Below are positions 1,631 through 53,086 of a DNA stretch of 64,000 bases, piece by piece. The number at the start of each line of letters is the position of its first letter. Position 1 is the first letter of the stretch. A program made the position numbers and the translations under genes. Under the pieces are notes generated by a model. It ran no database searches. It was not told the DNA's origin and saw nothing but the letters and a program-made list of their open reading frames with translations. This DNA is from Heliocidaris erythrogramma (Eukaryota; Echinodermata; Echinoidea; Camarodonta; Echinometridae): positions 26,444,094 through 26,508,093 of the forward strand of contig CM046857.1 in NCBI GenBank assembly GCA_025617745.1, written 5' to 3'.

Positions 1631-2264
1631 TAGCCTTTTGACAAAGCCTCGTGACTTGGCAATTTTCCTCGTAATGCTGTGCCTGAGATGAGACTAGCCG
1701 GCGACGAAAAGAATCAGCACGGCCCGGGTGAACGCGCGATCGAGCGACTTTAGTCTCGCGCATTCACCGGGCTGCTAAATTTGTTTTCCTGTACCTTTGG
1801 GGCTATCCAATATGAATATTCATGACTTTGGGTCTTAGAGATGAAAGTACGCATGCGCATGACCAGTAATACGGTTTATTCCGTCAAGACTAGTCGGCAT
1901 GAATATTCATGAAAACGAACTGTAGGGATATGATAAAACGAGTAAAGGCCATTGGGCAGCTGTTTTGTGTGGCGCAGTCGGATAATCTGGTGCGCTATTG
2001 ATGAAAGGACCGCAAGTTCGAATCTCGGCAGAGGAATATATTACGAAATTTTCTTTTGCTGATTTTAAAAATATGGTGAAACTGAGTAAGAAAATACAAG
2101 TCCGATACTATGTAGTCTCTTTCATGAATATTGAGATTGGATAGCCCCAAAGGTACAGGGGGGAAAAAATGCCACCGGGCTGGGCGGCTAGCCTTGTTAT
2201 GCAGCCACTACTAGCTTACTTGCCGAGAAAAATAGCCAAGTCACGAGGGCCTTGTCAAAAGGCT
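1631..2264. mobile_element. Non-autonomous DNA element, 10-base TSD
   Basis: Inverted termini of about 35 bases (left TAGCCTTTTGACAAAGCC, right ending TTGTCAAAAGGCT) are flanked by direct repeats GATTACACAC at 1621-1630 and 2265-2274. The paralogous intron near 13370 has a single uninterrupted GATTACACAC and acts as the empty site. A 10-base duplication suggests a Mutator-like element, though termini that are not long leave this open. A second element with its own inverted repeats is nested inside. No transposase is seen. Confidence 0.75.
1788..2159. mobile_element. Nested inverted-repeat element with tRNA-like core
   Basis: Inverted ends of about 38 bases (CCTGTACCTTTGGGGC at the left, its complement at 2143-2159) enclose a core with an A-box-like TGGCGCAGTCGG (about 1971) and a B-box-like GTTCGAATCTC (about 2015). 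The core therefore resembles a tRNA or tRNA-SINE head. It lies wholly inside the 1631-2264 element. Confidence 0.55.
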
Positions 2265-2274
2265 GATTACACAC

Positions 2275-3060
2275 ACAAGGTGTTATTTACCAGACGTAGG
2301 ATTACGTCAGTGACTGGCGCGGTCAGGCAAACGTGGCAAATGATGCAGCGTGCGCAACGAAAATTAACACGAGGCATCTTTTGATTGACCTAGCTTAGGA
2401 CTGCGTCAGTGCCTTTTCCGGACTTTGACGGGTCATGTGAGAGTGACATCGTCTATAAAGATATTGCAATATGACCAGGCCAATATTGTGTTGAATTACT
2501 GGTGTACGGGCTAATTGCCTTCACGTCACATGCTCCATTAGCGTACGTAATAACGCAATCTAAATCATGCCTCGTGTGCAACGGGCATTATCACTTTGTA
2601 ACAAACTTTCTTCAAGTGTTGAGGAATTACGTGTAATTATTATTTTGTAATCCTTTTGTGTGGTGGAATTTCAAAAATATGAATTAATGTCACTCCATGG
2701 AAGCCTTTTAGACGAATTCATGTAGATGTGCTGCAATATTTATTTGTACATTGCGCAATTAATTGTGACTAAAGCCTATAAGATATCAACATAAAACTGT
2801 TGACAGCCTGTCATACCATAATTCCCTGCGAGGAGAGTCTGAGATAAGCCAATCAAATTGCTTTGATGCCGCTCAAATAATATTCTACATTTATTTTTAT
2901 AAGAAAAAACAAAACAGGCTTCGTATGACCTGAAACCCACAAAGAACTTCTTCAGCACTGGAATGAATAAATTCACTTGTAACAGAGAAAGGCGACTACA
3001 TGGCAAAGAGAACCGATAGATCTCAAAACCAGACTCCATCAAAAAGCTCATGTACAATTT
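2275..3060 (+). other. Remnant of B-C intron
   Basis: Homologous to 13373-13508 plus 16983-17640, which flank the large insertion in the paralogous intron, so this is the uninterrupted version. It contains the empty site of that insertion (CTGCGTCAGTGCC near 2401). No coding capacity is seen. Confidence 0.7.
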
Positions 3061-6582: not shown

Positions 6583-7118
6583 ATGCCGAGAAGGTGACAC
6601 CACTCCCGGAGCTTTCTTGCCGAAAGGACCCAAACCAGTGTTCCTACGTTCAAGTGATGTTCGAAATGTAGATAGGAAATCTCTTACAGGAGAGGAGCTG
6701 TACAAGAGTATTCTAAAGGTTATACAACCTGAAGACATCGCTGGTATTCAAGAAATTCGGCACCTGTGGAGAATCTGAGTTCACACTAGGATAGAGTCCT
6801 TCTTATTGCAAACGGTCTTGAATTGCGTGATACGTATGTGCCTATTCATGACGTCAACCCTTTCACGAAGCTCAGGGATGAACATCTTACAAGGGTAGTC
6901 GTCAAAGAGATCCCTTTGTCACTCAGCGATGACGTCATTAGAGGAGAAATCCTAGCACGGAAACATGATATCAAAGGGGAGATCTATCGGCAGAAGTTAC
7001 GCGTAAATGGTCAGTTGACCAGCTGTTTGAATGGGGACAGAATCCTCTACATTATTCCACCAACCCACCCCCTACCAAGGAAGATTACCTTTGGCAATCT
7101 TGATGATAAGATGATAAT
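6583..7118 (+). pseudogene. LINE ORF1 remnant
   Basis: Frames with KSLTGEELYKSIL, then TRVVVKEIPLSLSDDV, GEIYRQKLRVNGQL and LNGDRILYI resemble the nucleic-acid-binding ORF1 product of Tx1-like LINEs. At least one stop and frameshift (near 6778) interrupt it. The downstream end fuses at about 7118 to the middle of the endonuclease, so an internal deletion has removed the rest of ORF1 and the start of ORF2. The call rests on position and pattern. Confidence 0.5.
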
Positions 7119-7901
7119 TCGTAATGAATGGAAAGGTTGTGTTTATTCAACCATGGAACAAATCATTCCAAAGGAGTTGCAATTTTGATAAAAAATAATC
7201 TATGTAATGAAGAGATGAGTAGCCGTAACAAAGAAGAAAATAAAAGTGCAACTTTCATTATTTTGAATTCGCATTCAAAGAATGGTGGAAGAATCGTAGC
7301 TTTACGTTTTCAGTACCAAAATAACATATATTTTTGTTTGAATGTCTTTGCACCAACAAAAATTGCTGAGAAAAAAGAATTCTATAAACTCTTAAACAAT
7401 TGGTTAAACAAAGTTATAAAGACAAATGATATTTTAATATTCAGTGGTAACTGGAATAGCGTACAAAACCGAATGAAAGACACCTGGGGCATGTCTCATG
7501 CATATGTTTTAAAGAAAGAATTTAAACGATTACAGCAAAAGCATAAATTAATCGACATCTGGAGAAAATTTTACCCTGATAAGAAACAATTTACATGGAG
7601 ACAAATGACGCTGGGCATTTTCTCTAGACTAGATTACTGGTTAATTTCAAGAGATGCTAAATGTTTAATATATTCTACAGACATAAGACCAGCGTTGAAA
7701 TGTGACCATAACGATATTTCTTTAAAACTAAAAGCTTCCGAAAAGAAAAGAGGAAAGGGATACTGGAAAATAAATAATTCTCTTTTAAATGATGTTACAT
7801 ATATAAATGCGATTAGGAAAGTAATACGGAGTATGAATTATGAATTTTCATATTTAGATCAGCAAATGAAATGGGAAATGTGTAAAATTAAGATAAAATA
7901 A
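7119..7901 (+). pseudogene. LINE ORF2 endonuclease domain
   Basis: Apurinic-endonuclease-type domain of a non-LTR retrotransposon. Visible motifs in order are HGTNHSKGVAILI, FSGNWNSV (canonical elements have G-D-F-N here), SRLDYWLIS and CDHNDISL. The metal-binding N-terminal part is missing, and Asp to Asn in the GDFN motif would impair catalysis. The frame ends with a stop after KMCKIKIK-like sequence while family similarity continues in the next frame. It is part of the 5925-11186 LINE. Confidence 0.8.
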
Positions 7902-7907
7902 TTTAGT

Positions 7908-9402
7908 ATGAAATATGTAAAACAAACGTACATGAATAAGAAAAAATATATCAATAAACTTGAAAAGGACTATAAGGATACACGTGAAACGATAGATGCT
8001 ACGTTCTGTCCAAATAATGTTGAAAAAATGCAAAAATTAAGAAAGGAAGTTGATGTTTGGTATAAATATAAATGTGAAGGTGCATTTATTAGATCACGGG
8101 AAAGCTTGAGCATGGGGAGAAATCTTCTAAATATTTTTTACAGCTTGAAAAAAAAGAGGCAAAAGAAAAGAAATTGATTACATTGAAGTCAAAGGTAAAA
8201 TTGTTCAAGATAATAGAAAATTACTTTCAAAGATACACGAATTTTACTCAAACCTTTACAAAAAGAAGAAAAAAATACTGATCATGATGATTATTTTGAA
8301 GGTTTAGTGCTTCTTACTCTAACAGAAGAGCAGGCTAATGAATGTGAAGGTGACCTTACAGAAAAAGAATTTGGGAACCCCTTTTATCCATGAATGTTAA
8401 TAAGTCACCTGGAAGCGATGGCTTGGCGCTGAATTCTATAGGCACTTTTGGAACGATGTAAAAGAAATGTTAATTGGCAGTCTTAATAAAGGTTATGAAA
8501 GAGGTACGTTGTCATTAACCCTAAGGCAAGCCATTCTCACGTTGTTGTACAAAAAAGGTAATAAATCTTGTTTGGACAATTGGCGTTCCATATCATTGCT
8601 TAATATAGATTACAAAATCGCTGCTCGTGCTTTATCTATTCGACTTAAACGTATAATTCATTATATTATATCTGATGACCAAACTTGATTTATGAAACAT
8701 AGGGCATCTACAGAAAATATTCGACTGGTGCAAGATGTCATTGATTATTGTACTGTTAAGAATCAATAAGGAATTATAATGTTTTTGGATTTCCGTAAAG
8801 CGTTTGATAATGTCACTCATACCTTTTTGTACAAAACTTTGCGGAAAATGAATTTTAATGAATCGTTTGTCCGTTGGATTAATACCTTATATCAAAATGC
8901 CAATGGGAGAGTATTAAATTACGGATGGTTGTCAAAAAAGTTTGATATTAAACGTGGTGTACGTCAGGGCTGCCCTTTATCTGCACTTTTATTTATAATA
9001 GTTGGAGAGGTCTTGACTGAAAAAATAAAACAAAACAAAAGCATTACCGGTATACACATACCACTTGGGAAAAAAGATGAACAAAATACCAAAGAGATAA
9101 AAATTGCTCAGTATGCAGATGACACTATTATATTTGTAGACTCTGCCTTCTCAATGAAAAATGTAATGTCTGATGTCAATGAGTTTGGCAAAAAAGCAGG
9201 GCCTTTAGTGAACTGGAATAAATCAAACATAATGAAATTAATGGATACAATCGAATTAGATGATGTAAATGTAACCGATCAACCGGTAAAGTGTTTAGGA
9301 GTGTATGTGGGTAAAAATCATGTTGAGGTAGAGAGACTAAACTGGAAAGGAAGGATAGAGAAAGTAAAGAATATTTTGAACTTATGGAAAATGCGTAATT
9401 GA
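7908..9402 (+). pseudogene. LINE ORF2 reverse transcriptase domain
   Basis: After a basic linker (7908-8177), reverse transcriptase motifs follow in broken frames: NKSPGSDGL near 8400, NWRSISLLNIDYKI, FMKHRASTENIRL, MFLDFRKAFDNV, RGVRQGCPLSALLF and AQYADDTIIFVD, the active site, near 9110-9140. GIHIPLG and WNKSNIMKL belong to the Tx1/L1 pattern. Stops near 8688 and 8769 and frameshifts near 8180-8390 inactivate it. It would copy the element RNA by target-primed reverse transcription. Confidence 0.88.
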
Positions 9403-9733
9403 CATATTTTGGAAGAGTTACAGTATTGAAAATTTTAATTGCATCGCAATTTGTTTATATTGCTACGGCAGTTAGAGTTCCCAAGTACATTATTAAAGAG
9501 TTGAATAAGCAAATGTATTCTTTATTTATGGCATTCAAGAAAAGACAAAGTAAAAAGAAATGTATGTATAAATAAAGTGCTAAATAGGGGACTAGAAATG
9601 GTTGATATTGAATCAAAATTTAATTCGTTACGATTATCATGGAAATTTTAAAATTTCTTAGTGATAGTATAAAGGAGCTTGGAAATCTCTTTTTTCTTAC
9701 TGGACCAGTAAGTAAGGTGGATTCCCTTTATTT

Positions 9734-10827
9734 TTGAGATTTAACTGTCAAGACAAAGATTTTGTGCGTGTTGGCAAACAAAATAACTTACCTCAATTTT
9801 ATTTGGATCTATTAAGTGTTTGGGCATCCATTAGATTCATTGACTTATTAAAGGTAAAAGATATCGGAAATCAAATTATTTGGAATAATAGCAATATAAA
9901 ATATGATAACAAAATGTTGTTCTTCAAAAGATGGAGCGATATGGGAATCATAAGTGTTAAACAAGTAATAATAGATGGACGTTGGAAGGAAGTTAAAGGG
10001 ATACTCAACCCGCAGATTGTGGACGTTTTAATGCCGCGAGAGGGCACCGTGATCGTTACCTGATCATGCCGTTGCCCCGCGAGGCGCAAACCTCGGATAA
10101 ACTGGTCGCCGCACAAACATGCACGCTCCGCCTGAGCTCGAGCTCTCGTGCGAGATTCGGTCGGCTTCGTGCAGTCGAAATGTAATCCCACTTAGTCCAA
10201 CGGACGCGTTCGTCGCACAAACTTTGTGTACGAGTGAATGGGGCTTACGCAATCCTGACTTTCCCCATGGCCGCCCGGTGGCGTATCCCTTTAATGATAT
10301 TTTAAATGATTTTGAATCAAAAAATTTATTGTGTCATTTTTGAGCTATCAAAATTAAAAAAAATATTCCCGATAATTTGGTTAAATAAAACAAAAGATAG
10401 ACAGTTTGCGGAGTACAATTTGTTTGAAATTTCTACTGGCGATTTAATTAATATAAGAACTATGAAAGCCAAACATTACAATAATTTATTCACTGAGTTG
10501 AAACAGTTGGAACCATACTATTTTAATTATTGGATTGAGTGTTTGAAATTAAAGGATGATTTTGTATGGGATAAACTTATGTTCTTCAAATTTAAGTATA
10601 TAAAAGATAAAAAAATTGAGCAATTTAATTTCAAGCTTTTTCACAGAATACTACCGTCAAAAGACAATTTATTCAAATGGAATATTTTAAGTGATAACCA
10701 ATGTAATATATGTAATTGTCAAGATACAACAATGCATATGTTATTTGAATGCAAGAGAGTAAAGATCTTGTGGAAAATTATTGAACGAATGATTTTTTTA
10801 TATATATCAGAAAGAAGTAAAAGTTGA
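9734..10827 (+). pseudogene. LINE ORF2 C-terminal region
   Basis: Continuation of ORF2 (LPQFYLDLLSVWASI, then KLFHRILPSKDNLFKWN) ending in a cysteine-histidine motif CNICNCQDTTMHMLFEC, typical of the C-terminus of L1/Tx1-type ORF2 proteins. It is split by the GC-rich element at 9997-10290 and by a stop near 10341. The final non-coding 350 bases lead to the A-rich end at 11186. Confidence 0.75.
9997..10290. mobile_element. GC-rich MITE flanked by TTAA
   Basis: A 294-base GC-rich block inside the AT-rich LINE ORF2. It begins AGGGATAC, ends GTATCCCT and is flanked on both sides by TTAA (9993-9996, 10291-10294). Removing it with one TTAA leaves the LINE frame continuous across the site. TTAA duplication is typical of piggyBac and Kolobok transposons. 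It has no coding capacity. Confidence 0.7.
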
Positions 10828-12682: not shown

Positions 12683-12796
12683 ACATCATTAAGTGTGTAA
12701 GTGCACCATGTCAGAATGGAGGAACATGTAACGATGAGATCAATAGCTACACATGTAATTGTGCTGCTGGATGGACTGGTCTTAATTGTGATGTTG
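12683..12796 (+). CDS. EGF-like domain exon A4
   Basis: A 114-base phase 1-1 exon: [31 protein letters not shown]. Six cysteines. Two oddities set it apart: Glu before the first cysteine is replaced by Lys, which removes a calcium ligand position, and the donor is GTTAGT instead of GTAAGT. The acceptor is normal. O-glucose and O-fucose consensus motifs are kept. It heads the only block that still has A, B and C together. Confidence 0.88.
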
Positions 12797-13341: not shown

Positions 13342-13975
13342 GTATGCAATCAATTCATTACATTATGCCGATTACACACACGAGGTGTTATTTTCCTGAC
13401 GTAGTATTACGTCAGTGACTGGCGCGGTCAGGCAAACTTGGCAAATGATGTAGCGTGGGCAACGGAAATTAACACGAGGCGTCTTTTGAATGACATAGCT
13501 TAGGACTGCGTCGCACAGTGGAGCCAGTCTGGCCCAAAGTGCGCCAAAATTCATATTCACTGAGTTTTACTTAAAATTTAAACTTAGATGATGGGTCTAT
13601 GGGTATTCAGACCCGTAGAATCCGATGAAAATATTTTTGAATACCTATGACGTCATTAAAATACCGATTTCTGATTGGCTGCCAAAATCCAGTGGAAAAT
13701 AGCATATTTCTCGTATTACAATGATTATCCTACTTTAGAAAATTGATAATGCGATCTCTACGCTTGTATATCAACAAGTGAAAACGGTTAACTTAAAGCT
13801 CAGACATATGGTACGTAGAGTGACTTAAAGGGGGGGGGGGGCGCCCTACTGGAAACTATTTATAATAATGAGAAATTTGCAATGTATGATGTCATTACTT
13901 GAAAGTAAACTTTGATAGTGCATATAATAATAAAGTAATAATATTCAGCTAACTGAAAAATTACACTATGAACAC

Positions 13976-14384
13976 GATGACAAAAGTGAGTGGACAAAAT
14001 ATACAGCTCCTCATTGTACCCTCCACAATTGTTCTGGTAGACAAAAGACCATCCCTTCATTGCTATTATGTAAAATAAGTAGAACAGGTGAATATGCATG
14101 TGACACCTGTTCTACATATTTTTATATAATAGCAATGAAGGTATGTTCTTTTGTCCACCAGAGCAAGTGTGGAAGGTACAATGAGGAGCTGTATATTTTG
14201 TCCGCTTCCAGGGGCAGATACAGGATTTTCAGAAAGGGGGGGGGGGCGCACACTGAGAAAGCCATCTAGGGGGTCCGGGGGCATACTTTGTCAGACAAAA
14301 CGGGGGGGCGCACGCTCCTTGCGCCCCCCCCCCCCCCCCCTCTGGATCCGCACCTGGCTTCTTTGTTCGCCATGTTCATAGTGT
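13976..14384. mobile_element. Palindromic element P, copy 2
   Basis: Two complementary arms, left 13976-14090 and right 14095-14384, meet at a centre where GAACAGGTG faces CACCTGTTC. The right arm is interrupted by the small hAT-like element at 14209-14356. Homologous to 1-171 and 52801-53065. It lies within the CACAGTG-ended insertion. Confidence 0.75.
14209..14356. mobile_element. hAT-like MITE with G-runs
   Basis: A 148-base element starting CAGGGGCAGATACAGG and ending GGATCCGCACCTG, with long G and C runs inside. It sits in the right arm of palindrome P and is flanked by GCTTC on both sides (a shortened duplication). It belongs with the CAGGGGCGGATCCAGG family seen at 55293 and 60380. 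Confidence 0.65.
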
Positions 14385-15834
14385 GAGTTATTAATTTTAT
14401 TTTTTTTAATGAAGTTTCTAAAAAATGAAAGAGCCTTGAGAACTTTGCGAAAGACAAGCGTACCTGTATCACTAAAATGTAACTCTGTAGGTACTATCGA
14501 GTTATCAAAATCCTAATACTGACTGATAAAGTCCATGCATATTTTAAGTCCTTTTGCTTTCAAAATTATATTGATTATAAACAACCGGTATGAAGTTTAA
14601 ACTACATGACTGTCATTAAAATAAATGAAAAACTAATTGCAAATAAGAAACATGCTTACATAAAAATATATCTTTTATAAAGATATACAGGTAGAGGAAT
14701 ACAGGTAGATAGATGAATAGATAGAGGGATGCGTGTATGAAAAGATAGATGGATATAATAGATAGATAGATGGGATACGTGTAGATAAAATAAATAATGC
14801 ACTCAAAAGGCGAGCTAAATCTTGCCTTTTGGACTTCATTTATTGTAGGAAAGAAACAAATTCTCTACAGTCCAGCGCATTTTTGAAAGAAGAGAAACTT
14901 CACATTGTTTGACAAGGGTGGGTCGTTTAAAGAATTTTGGCTTGGAAGCAAGCAATTGTTTATGTTATACAAAATAGGAGCATTACGGATATTGAAAATA
15001 TCAGATCTCCATCTTACCCTACATCATAACAGAAACTTATTCTATTTATATAAAAAATTAGCAATATCACAAACATGAACTATATTTACACTTAAAGGTT
15101 ATTAATAATAACAGGATAAGTCTTACCTTAAACGAAGAATAGAACAAAATAGAACAACTTCCTCGGGATATAACATTCTAAAAAGTTGAGCATGCCTTAG
15201 AATACTGAAAACCACTGAACATCTTTGGCATCAAAATAAAACTGCAATGTTTGATAAAAGAAATCAGATCAATTTAGGCACCCGCTTGATGTAAACATTT
15301 AAATCCTATCCACAGATTGTGATGAACATGCCGCCCCAGTCGCCCCTTCTCTTATAATTCTCTCTCTTTCTTTGATCTTTTTTTTTTTCTCTCTCTCTGT
15401 CCTTCTCCATCTCTCTCTATATTTTCTTTTTCTATCTCAGTTTTCGTTTTCTGTTATGTTTCCCTCCACTTTTTGTTTCCGAACTTCACTGAGGAAACTT
15501 GGGAATCTCTTCTTGGATGACGAGTGTTCTACCACTTAAGACTGGACTAAAGACTGAAATGCAATCCATATGTTAGGATATAAGTTGTTTTCTGACATGT
15601 CCCATCATCTAAAAAGGGCCAGAAGACTATTAAAGCTTATTTCGGTACTCATGTCAAAAAGCATATTTAGGCCTAACGTTTATATTCTTTGCTGTGTGTG
15701 CATTGCCTGCGCATTTTTATGAACACATGGCGCGCTTCTATCGCATATTATATGATTTAGGCAAAAGAAAGGGGCGAACATGCGGGTGGAAAATGGGTTC
15801 TTACTCAAAAAGTTGCAAAAAGTAGCAGGCAAAT

Positions 15835-16493
15835 GTGACCCGACGCCTCAAAACCTACAATAAGTCGCCAAAATTATTTTTTTGTTTTATACATTTTCAG
15901 AAAGTAGAGATTCTCTGCTTTCCAATGCTATGTCACTTGCCTAGTTTACTCAATGATAACACCTTTAAATATCACATTTAGAATCAGTATGTAACCAGCA
16001 ATCAATAACTCCTATTCAGAGAAAATGGCCATTTAAGTTCGGAACAAAAGAGTGCTAAACCTTCGCTCTGTATGTGCGGCCAAGTAAAACTGGGTATTCA
16101 AATGTCCATATAAACTGGTATGAAGGGATTATCAGATTAGGCTGAATTTTGGCACACTGCTCCAAGAGGACCTATTCATTACTCACTCCAAAAATCAATT
16201 TAATACCTTTAGAGGTAAAGTAGTAATTTGGCATTGAATGAAAGTATTACAAAAGCTCTCCAAACATTCATTAGCTCGACAGGTGAAAAAAAGGAGTCAT
16301 TTTAAAATGCCCCCAAAACATATTTCTAAGTCGAATTACGACTCACAAACTTGAGACATAATAGAATGATAATTAAACTACCCATTTCTATCAAAAACAA
16401 AAAATCGACTGATTCAAGCAAATTTACTATTTTTGGCTGTTTGCTACGTTGTGGTCCGTGCGACTTATTGTAGGTTTTGAGGCGGCGGGTCAC
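15835..16493. mobile_element. MITE with GTGACCCG ends
   Basis: A 659-base element with inverted ends of about 32 bases (GTGACCCGACGCCTCAAAAC at the left, complement at 16462-16493) and AAAT on both sides. It is nested in the 13514-16977 insertion. Family unknown; no coding capacity. Confidence 0.65.
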
Positions 16494-16982
16494 AAATTTG
16501 GTATCAGTGTAAAGCATGAACTATGAGAAAGACGATCATGATATTTTCAGCGCGGAAATCGACGGAAATTTTGACCATCTTTGGGCATGAAAAAAAAAAT
16601 GCTATTTTCCCCCCAATATTTTGTGTTTCATCCAAACTTACTTTCGAGAGGAATAAGAGTTCGCCTGCAAACTCTATCATTATTTAAAATAACTATTCTG
16701 AAATAAGCATGTTCAATTTGAAGTGCATTAAACAACCCGTTTGGCGAAAACCTTTAATAAAACGCAGTATTGCATTTTACACAATGCATAACAAATAATC
16801 AAAGTTTCGGGTCTTTTAAAATAAAAATGACCCACTTAAAATTAATTTCAAGAAGAAATGCTGCTCAGGGGTGTTCTACACATTGTAATCTTTGCATAGA
16901 ACGTAAAAAAAAATAATTCTGTTTCATTGACCAAACCCCTATTTTGGCGCACTTTTGCTCACACCTGGCCCACTGTGCGTCG

Positions 16983-52800: not shown

Positions 52801-53065
52801 CCTATGAACACGATGACAAAGAGAGCGGACAAAATATACAGCTCCTCATTGTACCCTCCACAATTGATCTGGTAAACAAAAGAACATCCCTTCATTACTA
52901 TTATGTAAAATAAGCAGAACAGGTGAATATGCATGTGACACCTGTTCTACATATTTTTACAGAATGGCAATGAAGGGATGTTCTTTTGTCTACCAGGGCA
53001 ATTGTGGAAGGTTCAATGAGGAGCTGTATATTTTGTCCGCTTCTTTGTTCCCCATGTTCTTAGTG
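52801..53065. mobile_element. Palindromic element P, copy 3
   Basis: The most complete copy. Arms 52801-52930 and 52940-53065 are complementary with few mismatches, with GAACAGGTG and CACCTGTTC facing at the centre. It is followed 21 bases later by a tRNA-like sequence, similar to the arrangement at 1-370. Confidence 0.8.
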
Positions 53066-53086
53066 TGTTACTTTGCTTCGACGGGA

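Follow-up and report, generated by a model that had tools for sequence, protein, structure and literature searches.

The question raised by this locus is whether the 3,464-bp sequence at 13514..16977, bounded by the heptamer CACAGTG within an intron, is a mobile element, and whether its affinities lie with Transib or with the RAG-like transposons. The window, that is, the whole stretch of 64,000 nucleotides of Heliocidaris erythrogramma analyzed here, includes EGF-like exons at 12694 and 17902 that bracket the sequence and place it in an intron, in a host locus where EGF exons and introns have been duplicated into an array; the intronic insertion is assumed to have no effect on the EGF-repeat gene. 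The initial annotation had described an intronic insertion with CACAGTG at its ends and a CGTCG duplication, and the junctions, the inverted repeat and an empty site bear this out. The features concerned are the following:

13509..13513, no strand: left copy of the target site duplication (TSD), CGTCG
13514..13550, forward strand: left terminal inverted repeat (TIR), made of CACAGTG, GAGCCAG (GGCCAG in the family), variable bases and AAAGTGCGCCAAAAT
13514..16977, forward strand: very probable non-autonomous Transib element, 3,464 bp, without a transposase frame
13989..14206, no strand: internal fold-back with 87-nt arms, 91% complementary
15835..16493, no strand: insert of 659 bp nested in the element, its inverted ends 35 nt long (GTGACCCG and onward), between AAAT repeats
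16941..16977, reverse strand: right TIR, which reads CACAGTGGGCCAGGTGTGAGCAAAAGTGCGCCAAAAT inward
16978..16982, no strand: right copy of the TSD, CGTCG
2404..2408, no strand: empty target site CGTCA in the paralogous intron

Both ends of the insertion start with CACAGTGG reading inward; the left junction at 13514 runs from CTGCGTCG into CACAGTGGAGCC, the right junction at 16977 runs from GGCCCACTGTG into CGTCGGTGCC, and CGTCG stands on each side. The outer 37 nt of the two ends align as an imperfect inverted repeat, and with the duplication included the arms (13509-13550 and 16941-16982) measure 42 nt and are 79% complementary, in agreement with the approximately 40 imperfect inverted bases noticed initially. 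The terminal CACAGTGG is weak evidence when taken alone, with 3 matches in the 64-kb window versus 1.09 expected and this number reached in 11 of 100 shuffles; the inner block AAAGTGCGCCAAAAT occurs within the window at the two insertion ends only (up to 2 mismatches; 0.25 expected; none of 100 shuffles reaching 2). The paralogous intron, proposed earlier as the empty site, aligns as such, with CTG CGTCA GTGCC facing the filled arrangement CTG CGTCG, insert, CGTCG GTGCC.

When the insertion was used as a query against the 1.064-Gb assembly that contains the window, at least 129 matching stretches were recovered, a lower bound because scoring was restricted to the best 40 of 7,153 first-look candidates; for the same reason, the sample of copies is tilted to near relatives. 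A bipartite end pattern, composed of CACAGTGGGCCAG, nine free bases and AAAGTGCGCCAA and allowing up to 3 mismatches, gave 319 + 352 = 671 matches in the genome and none for the reversed control pattern, and among the matches listed the free bases were mainly of three types (AATGGCTCC; GTGTGAGCA; GGGCTAAAC/GGGCGAAAC). Past the heptamer, the family end reads GGCCAG N9 AAAGTGCGCCAAAAT. In the loci examined, 55 distinct ends were tabulated, with A at position 35 in all 55 and at position 36 in 51; neither position served to pick the ends, whereas positions 1-13 and 23-34 did, so that the invariance of the latter is partly due to selection. The search with the ends that the initial annotation had recommended thus revealed other copies with the same termini. 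Adjacent ends pair into elements of differing length. Among 17 fetched copies, 11 are paired, seven of them of 2.75-2.89 kb and the rest of 2.1, 2.3, 3.0 and 3.1 kb, and the 6 with an end that could not be recognized were left out of the TSD count. Three close end pairs at C2:35965282-36039513 (3,229, 3,215 and 4,592 bp) have the same flanks and are probably segmental duplicates of one insertion.

The divergence of 12 copies from their own majority consensus is 0.4-2.1% (gaps left out), which points to recent movement. No transposase frame is present in this consensus, where the longest stop-to-stop frame has 111 aa, just as none had been seen in the insertion itself; the longest frame of copy L009 has 152 aa and shows no Transib likeness by tblastn. 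A coding role for the element was rejected on these grounds, and low divergence together with the lack of a transposase frame indicates that the sampled copies are young and non-autonomous. Longer pairs (4.6, 5.5 and 4.2 kb) were considered as autonomous elements and discarded, since they have no transposase frame and the C-terminal segment of HzTransib matched nothing in them. A literature search on named non-autonomous Transibs returned nothing relevant (mosquito small RNAs only).

Longer relatives with the same ends, which the initial annotation had suggested looking for, were reached through the transposase. The query was a 71-aa Transib segment, which in a check against PDB matched HzTransib (6pqn) at 1.5e-27 and RAG1L/RAG1 at 0.015 or worse; in the 1.06-Gb genome it gave 2 matches at E up to 1 (5/5 candidates scored), and both loci carry family end sequences, with neither retaining both termini. 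At C9:21581306 (L072, C9:21.58 Mb), a left-type end lies approximately 340 bp past the C-terminal frame of the transposase and agrees at 24/25 scored positions, its heptamer reading CGCAGTG with CGCCG outside. On the opposite side, two stretches of approximately 92% identity represent positions 52-200 of an L069-type right end, subterminal and in the expected orientation; the outermost 50 bases or so of that end are replaced, and therefore this match could be a separate family fragment. Three translated pieces of the C9 locus match HzTransib 6pqn over residues 33-191 (1.2e-28), 247-353 (1.6e-25) and 370-459 (3.4e-17), no PDB entry other than HzTransib being matched at E up to 10, and their different frames imply that the gene is broken or contains introns. 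The second locus, C1:71246095 (C1:71.25 Mb), had already been collected as L043 because its outer end fits the family pattern; its right end agrees at 25/25 positions and is followed by 669 bp of the family right part (aligned in two blocks, at 90% and 81%), a Transib C-terminal fragment and 91 bp of the family left part. This copy is a fragment with an outer flank other than CGNCG, and the following 4 kb yielded no second end. By our own arithmetic, 671 ends in 1.06 Gb correspond to one per 1.6 Mb, so that approximately 0.004 would be expected by chance in the 6.7 kb examined. Both transposase-bearing copies are incomplete, and the analysis recovered no autonomous element in intact form.

The initial annotation had left the choice between a Transib and a ProtoRAG derivative; the termini, the 5-bp TSDs and the transposase pieces bear out the Transib part of this proposal. 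A derivative of a RAG-like (ProtoRAG/TransibSU-type) transposon mobilized by a RAG1L-RAG2L pair is very unlikely, even though it shares several traits with the family. CACAGTG is the consensus heptamer of the recombination signal sequence (RSS), and the genome also contains RAG1-like sequences: the Pfam RAG1 model matches 7 stretches at five places (L033-L037; C1, C7, C18, C21 and C5), with stops inside 4 of the 7. Six frames were scanned from four of these places (C7 left out); RAG1 was hit by four of the frames, the other two had no match, and the one frame compared with PDB is closest to amphioxus RAG1L. These five places are candidate relics or domesticated RAG1L genes. Moreover, GC-biased TSDs of 5 bp are common to RAG-like transposons in passages of PMC8289069 and PMC7204232, and an RSS-like terminal heptamer and a bipartite end are further likenesses to ProtoRAG and TransibSU. 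Nevertheless, the five stretches of 9.5 kb around the RAG1-like fragments contain no family end, and the transposase pieces beside family ends match HzTransib alone in PDB and are not matched by the Pfam RAG1 model. In the 55-end table, family positions 8-10 are GGC (positions 1-13 being also a criterion for picking ends), in contrast to the A-rich positions 8-10 that part of PMC7204232 reports at the ends of RAG-like transposons. ProtoRAG differs further in its heptamer, CACTATG, and in its asymmetric 27/31 spacing, as given in an excerpt of PMC8289069, whereas the spacing is equal at the family ends. On the basis of these differences in positions 8-10, RAG1-like loci and the Pfam model, the ProtoRAG/RAG1L origin was rejected.

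The resemblance of the family ends to the V(D)J RSS is exact in the heptamer and weak elsewhere. The initial statement that no nonamer was visible has to be qualified slightly, since in L009 an A-rich stretch follows each terminal heptamer at 23-base spacing (CCAAAATTC and CCAAAATAG) and matches the consensus nonamer at 6 and 5 of 9 positions; this is weak, and other spacings reach 5 of 9 too. Family ends are equally spaced, unlike the 12/23 pair of V(D)J signals; symmetric Transib ends with a heptamer, a nonamer-like block and spacers of 20-22 bases are drawn in a figure of PMC8355894. Hundreds of dispersed ends in this genome agree exactly with the consensus RSS heptamer, and in many of them an A-rich block lies deeper inside; a further reading that builds on such ends together with RAG1-like sequences within one animal is improbable.

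The TSDs were compared in 13 pairs from seven contigs, namely the 11 fetched copies with both ends, the window copy and L069; in L010 and L014 the right heptamer is mutated and the element end was set by hand. An identical 5-bp TSD was found in 13/13 pairs, 12 of them of the form CGNCG (CGGCG in six, CGTCG in three, CGACG in two, CGCCG in one), and the remaining one being CGCCC. Six further pairs, read from printed flanks, include three identical ones (L070, CGAAG; L045/L046, CGTCG; the C2 copies L060-L065, CGGCG, counted as one event because they share flanks) and three with a one-base mismatch (L041, GATCG/GATCA; L049/L050, CGTCG/CGCCG; L056/L057, CGCTG/CGCCG), which brings identity to 16/19 overall. 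A CGNCG flank is present at 39 of the 55 distinct ends in the loci examined. The flank beyond CGNCG tends to C, A and C at -8, -7 and -6 (25, 24 and 31 of 55 ends, respectively), a possible extension of the target motif; symmetry of the target outside the 5 bp was not evident in the 13 sites (3/13 at the first flanking pair).

The caveat raised initially, that termini shifted by one base would give a 3-base duplication, is a real one for the near-palindromic CGTCG: the flanking G and C pair in any CGNCG, which makes a 3-bp register formally possible, with ends beginning GCACAGTG and GTC as the duplication. Duplications of 3 bp (or 2 bp) are typical of CACTA/EnSpm elements, and a CACTA/EnSpm-like or other transposon of this kind is the corresponding alternative. 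Copy L016, with CGCCC on both sides, can be read in the 5-bp register only, so that the 3-bp TSD was rejected and the duplication length across copies, which the initial annotation had wished to see compared, is settled as 5 bp; since, in addition, the transposase of the relatives is of the Transib type, an element of the CACTA/EnSpm class is extremely improbable. An intron segment that was rearranged or duplicated and has such ends by chance might be imagined in a locus of arrayed EGF exon and intron duplicates, but its probability is negligible: the paralogous intron shows the empty site cleanly, and the 13 paired copies, distributed over seven contigs, have flanks of their own.

Taken together, the 5-bp TSDs, the CAC-type TIRs, the preference for CGNCG and the Transib transposase in elements with the same ends make it highly probable that the insertion belongs to the Transib superfamily of DNA transposons, as a non-autonomous element that a Transib transposase mobilized in trans. 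The CAC heptamer-like ends and the 5-bp duplication are shared with other members of the superfamily (HzTransib; Drosophila hopper and transib2; moth Transib), the CGNCG target with moth Transib, and the transposase pieces, over residues 33-459 at two loci with family ends, with HzTransib; unlike these, the window copy lacks a transposase and includes the nested insert of 659 bp. CGNCG appears as a Transib target or insertion motif, from moth data, in a portion of PMC4735498, and is also tabulated for Transib in a part of PMC5704228 that cites another source, maybe for the same data. Hopper of Drosophila produced a 5-bp duplication in 532/533 insertions, with the motif CCANTGG, according to a section of PMC3276498, and the 5-bp TSD of Hztransib is given as GCTCG in a passage of PMC1852546. 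Mechanistically, the Transib transposase would bind the paired ends through the heptamer CACAGTG and the conserved inner block at positions 23-37, would cut at CAC, and would then insert the element at CGNCG, with the two joining points staggered by 5 bp; in this proposed sequence of events, the 5-bp duplications would result from that stagger. The enzyme that supplied the recent transpositions was presumably an intact Transib transposase other than the pieces recovered here.

The length of the window copy (3,464 bp) is explained by the nested 659-bp insert at 15835-16493, which is missing at the same spot in L009 and is a separate genomic repeat, with 24 other copies of 95-97% identity among the matches scored (best 40 of 7,153 candidates). 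An 8-bp duplication around this insert was considered and rejected, as AAAT is what stands on each side. In copy L021, a Transib copy sits within sequence like the end of the 659-bp repeat, at a CGCCG of that sequence. The fold-back at 13989-14206 is present in other copies of the Transib family too, and relatives of it (arms of approximately 87 nt) are found free in the window at 52802-53066 and 2-171. Other repeats judged by eye include an insert of approximately 630 bp with inverted ends in the paralogous intron (window 1631-2261), with no counterpart in the intron of the Transib copy, and frames at 6823-10827 of the window that resemble a LINE-type endonuclease and reverse transcriptase.

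In summary, the family is a young, non-autonomous Transib family, new within Transib, and represents a known type of element, not a new type. The 2005 paper on Transib and RAG1 may, reportedly, already cover Transib families of sea urchins. The relevance to the origin of RAG suggested initially holds in a reduced form: the insertion alone does not bear on that origin, and the bearing of the family is modest, Transib being related to RAG1 and widespread in invertebrates, as stated in part of PMC9435367. What the genome offers is a Transib family that moved recently, has an exact RSS heptamer, strongly prefers CGNCG and comes with degraded transposase-bearing relatives, in the presence of RAG1-like fragments, and the family is thus useful material on the coexistence of Transib and RAG-like sequences and on the differing recognition of their ends.
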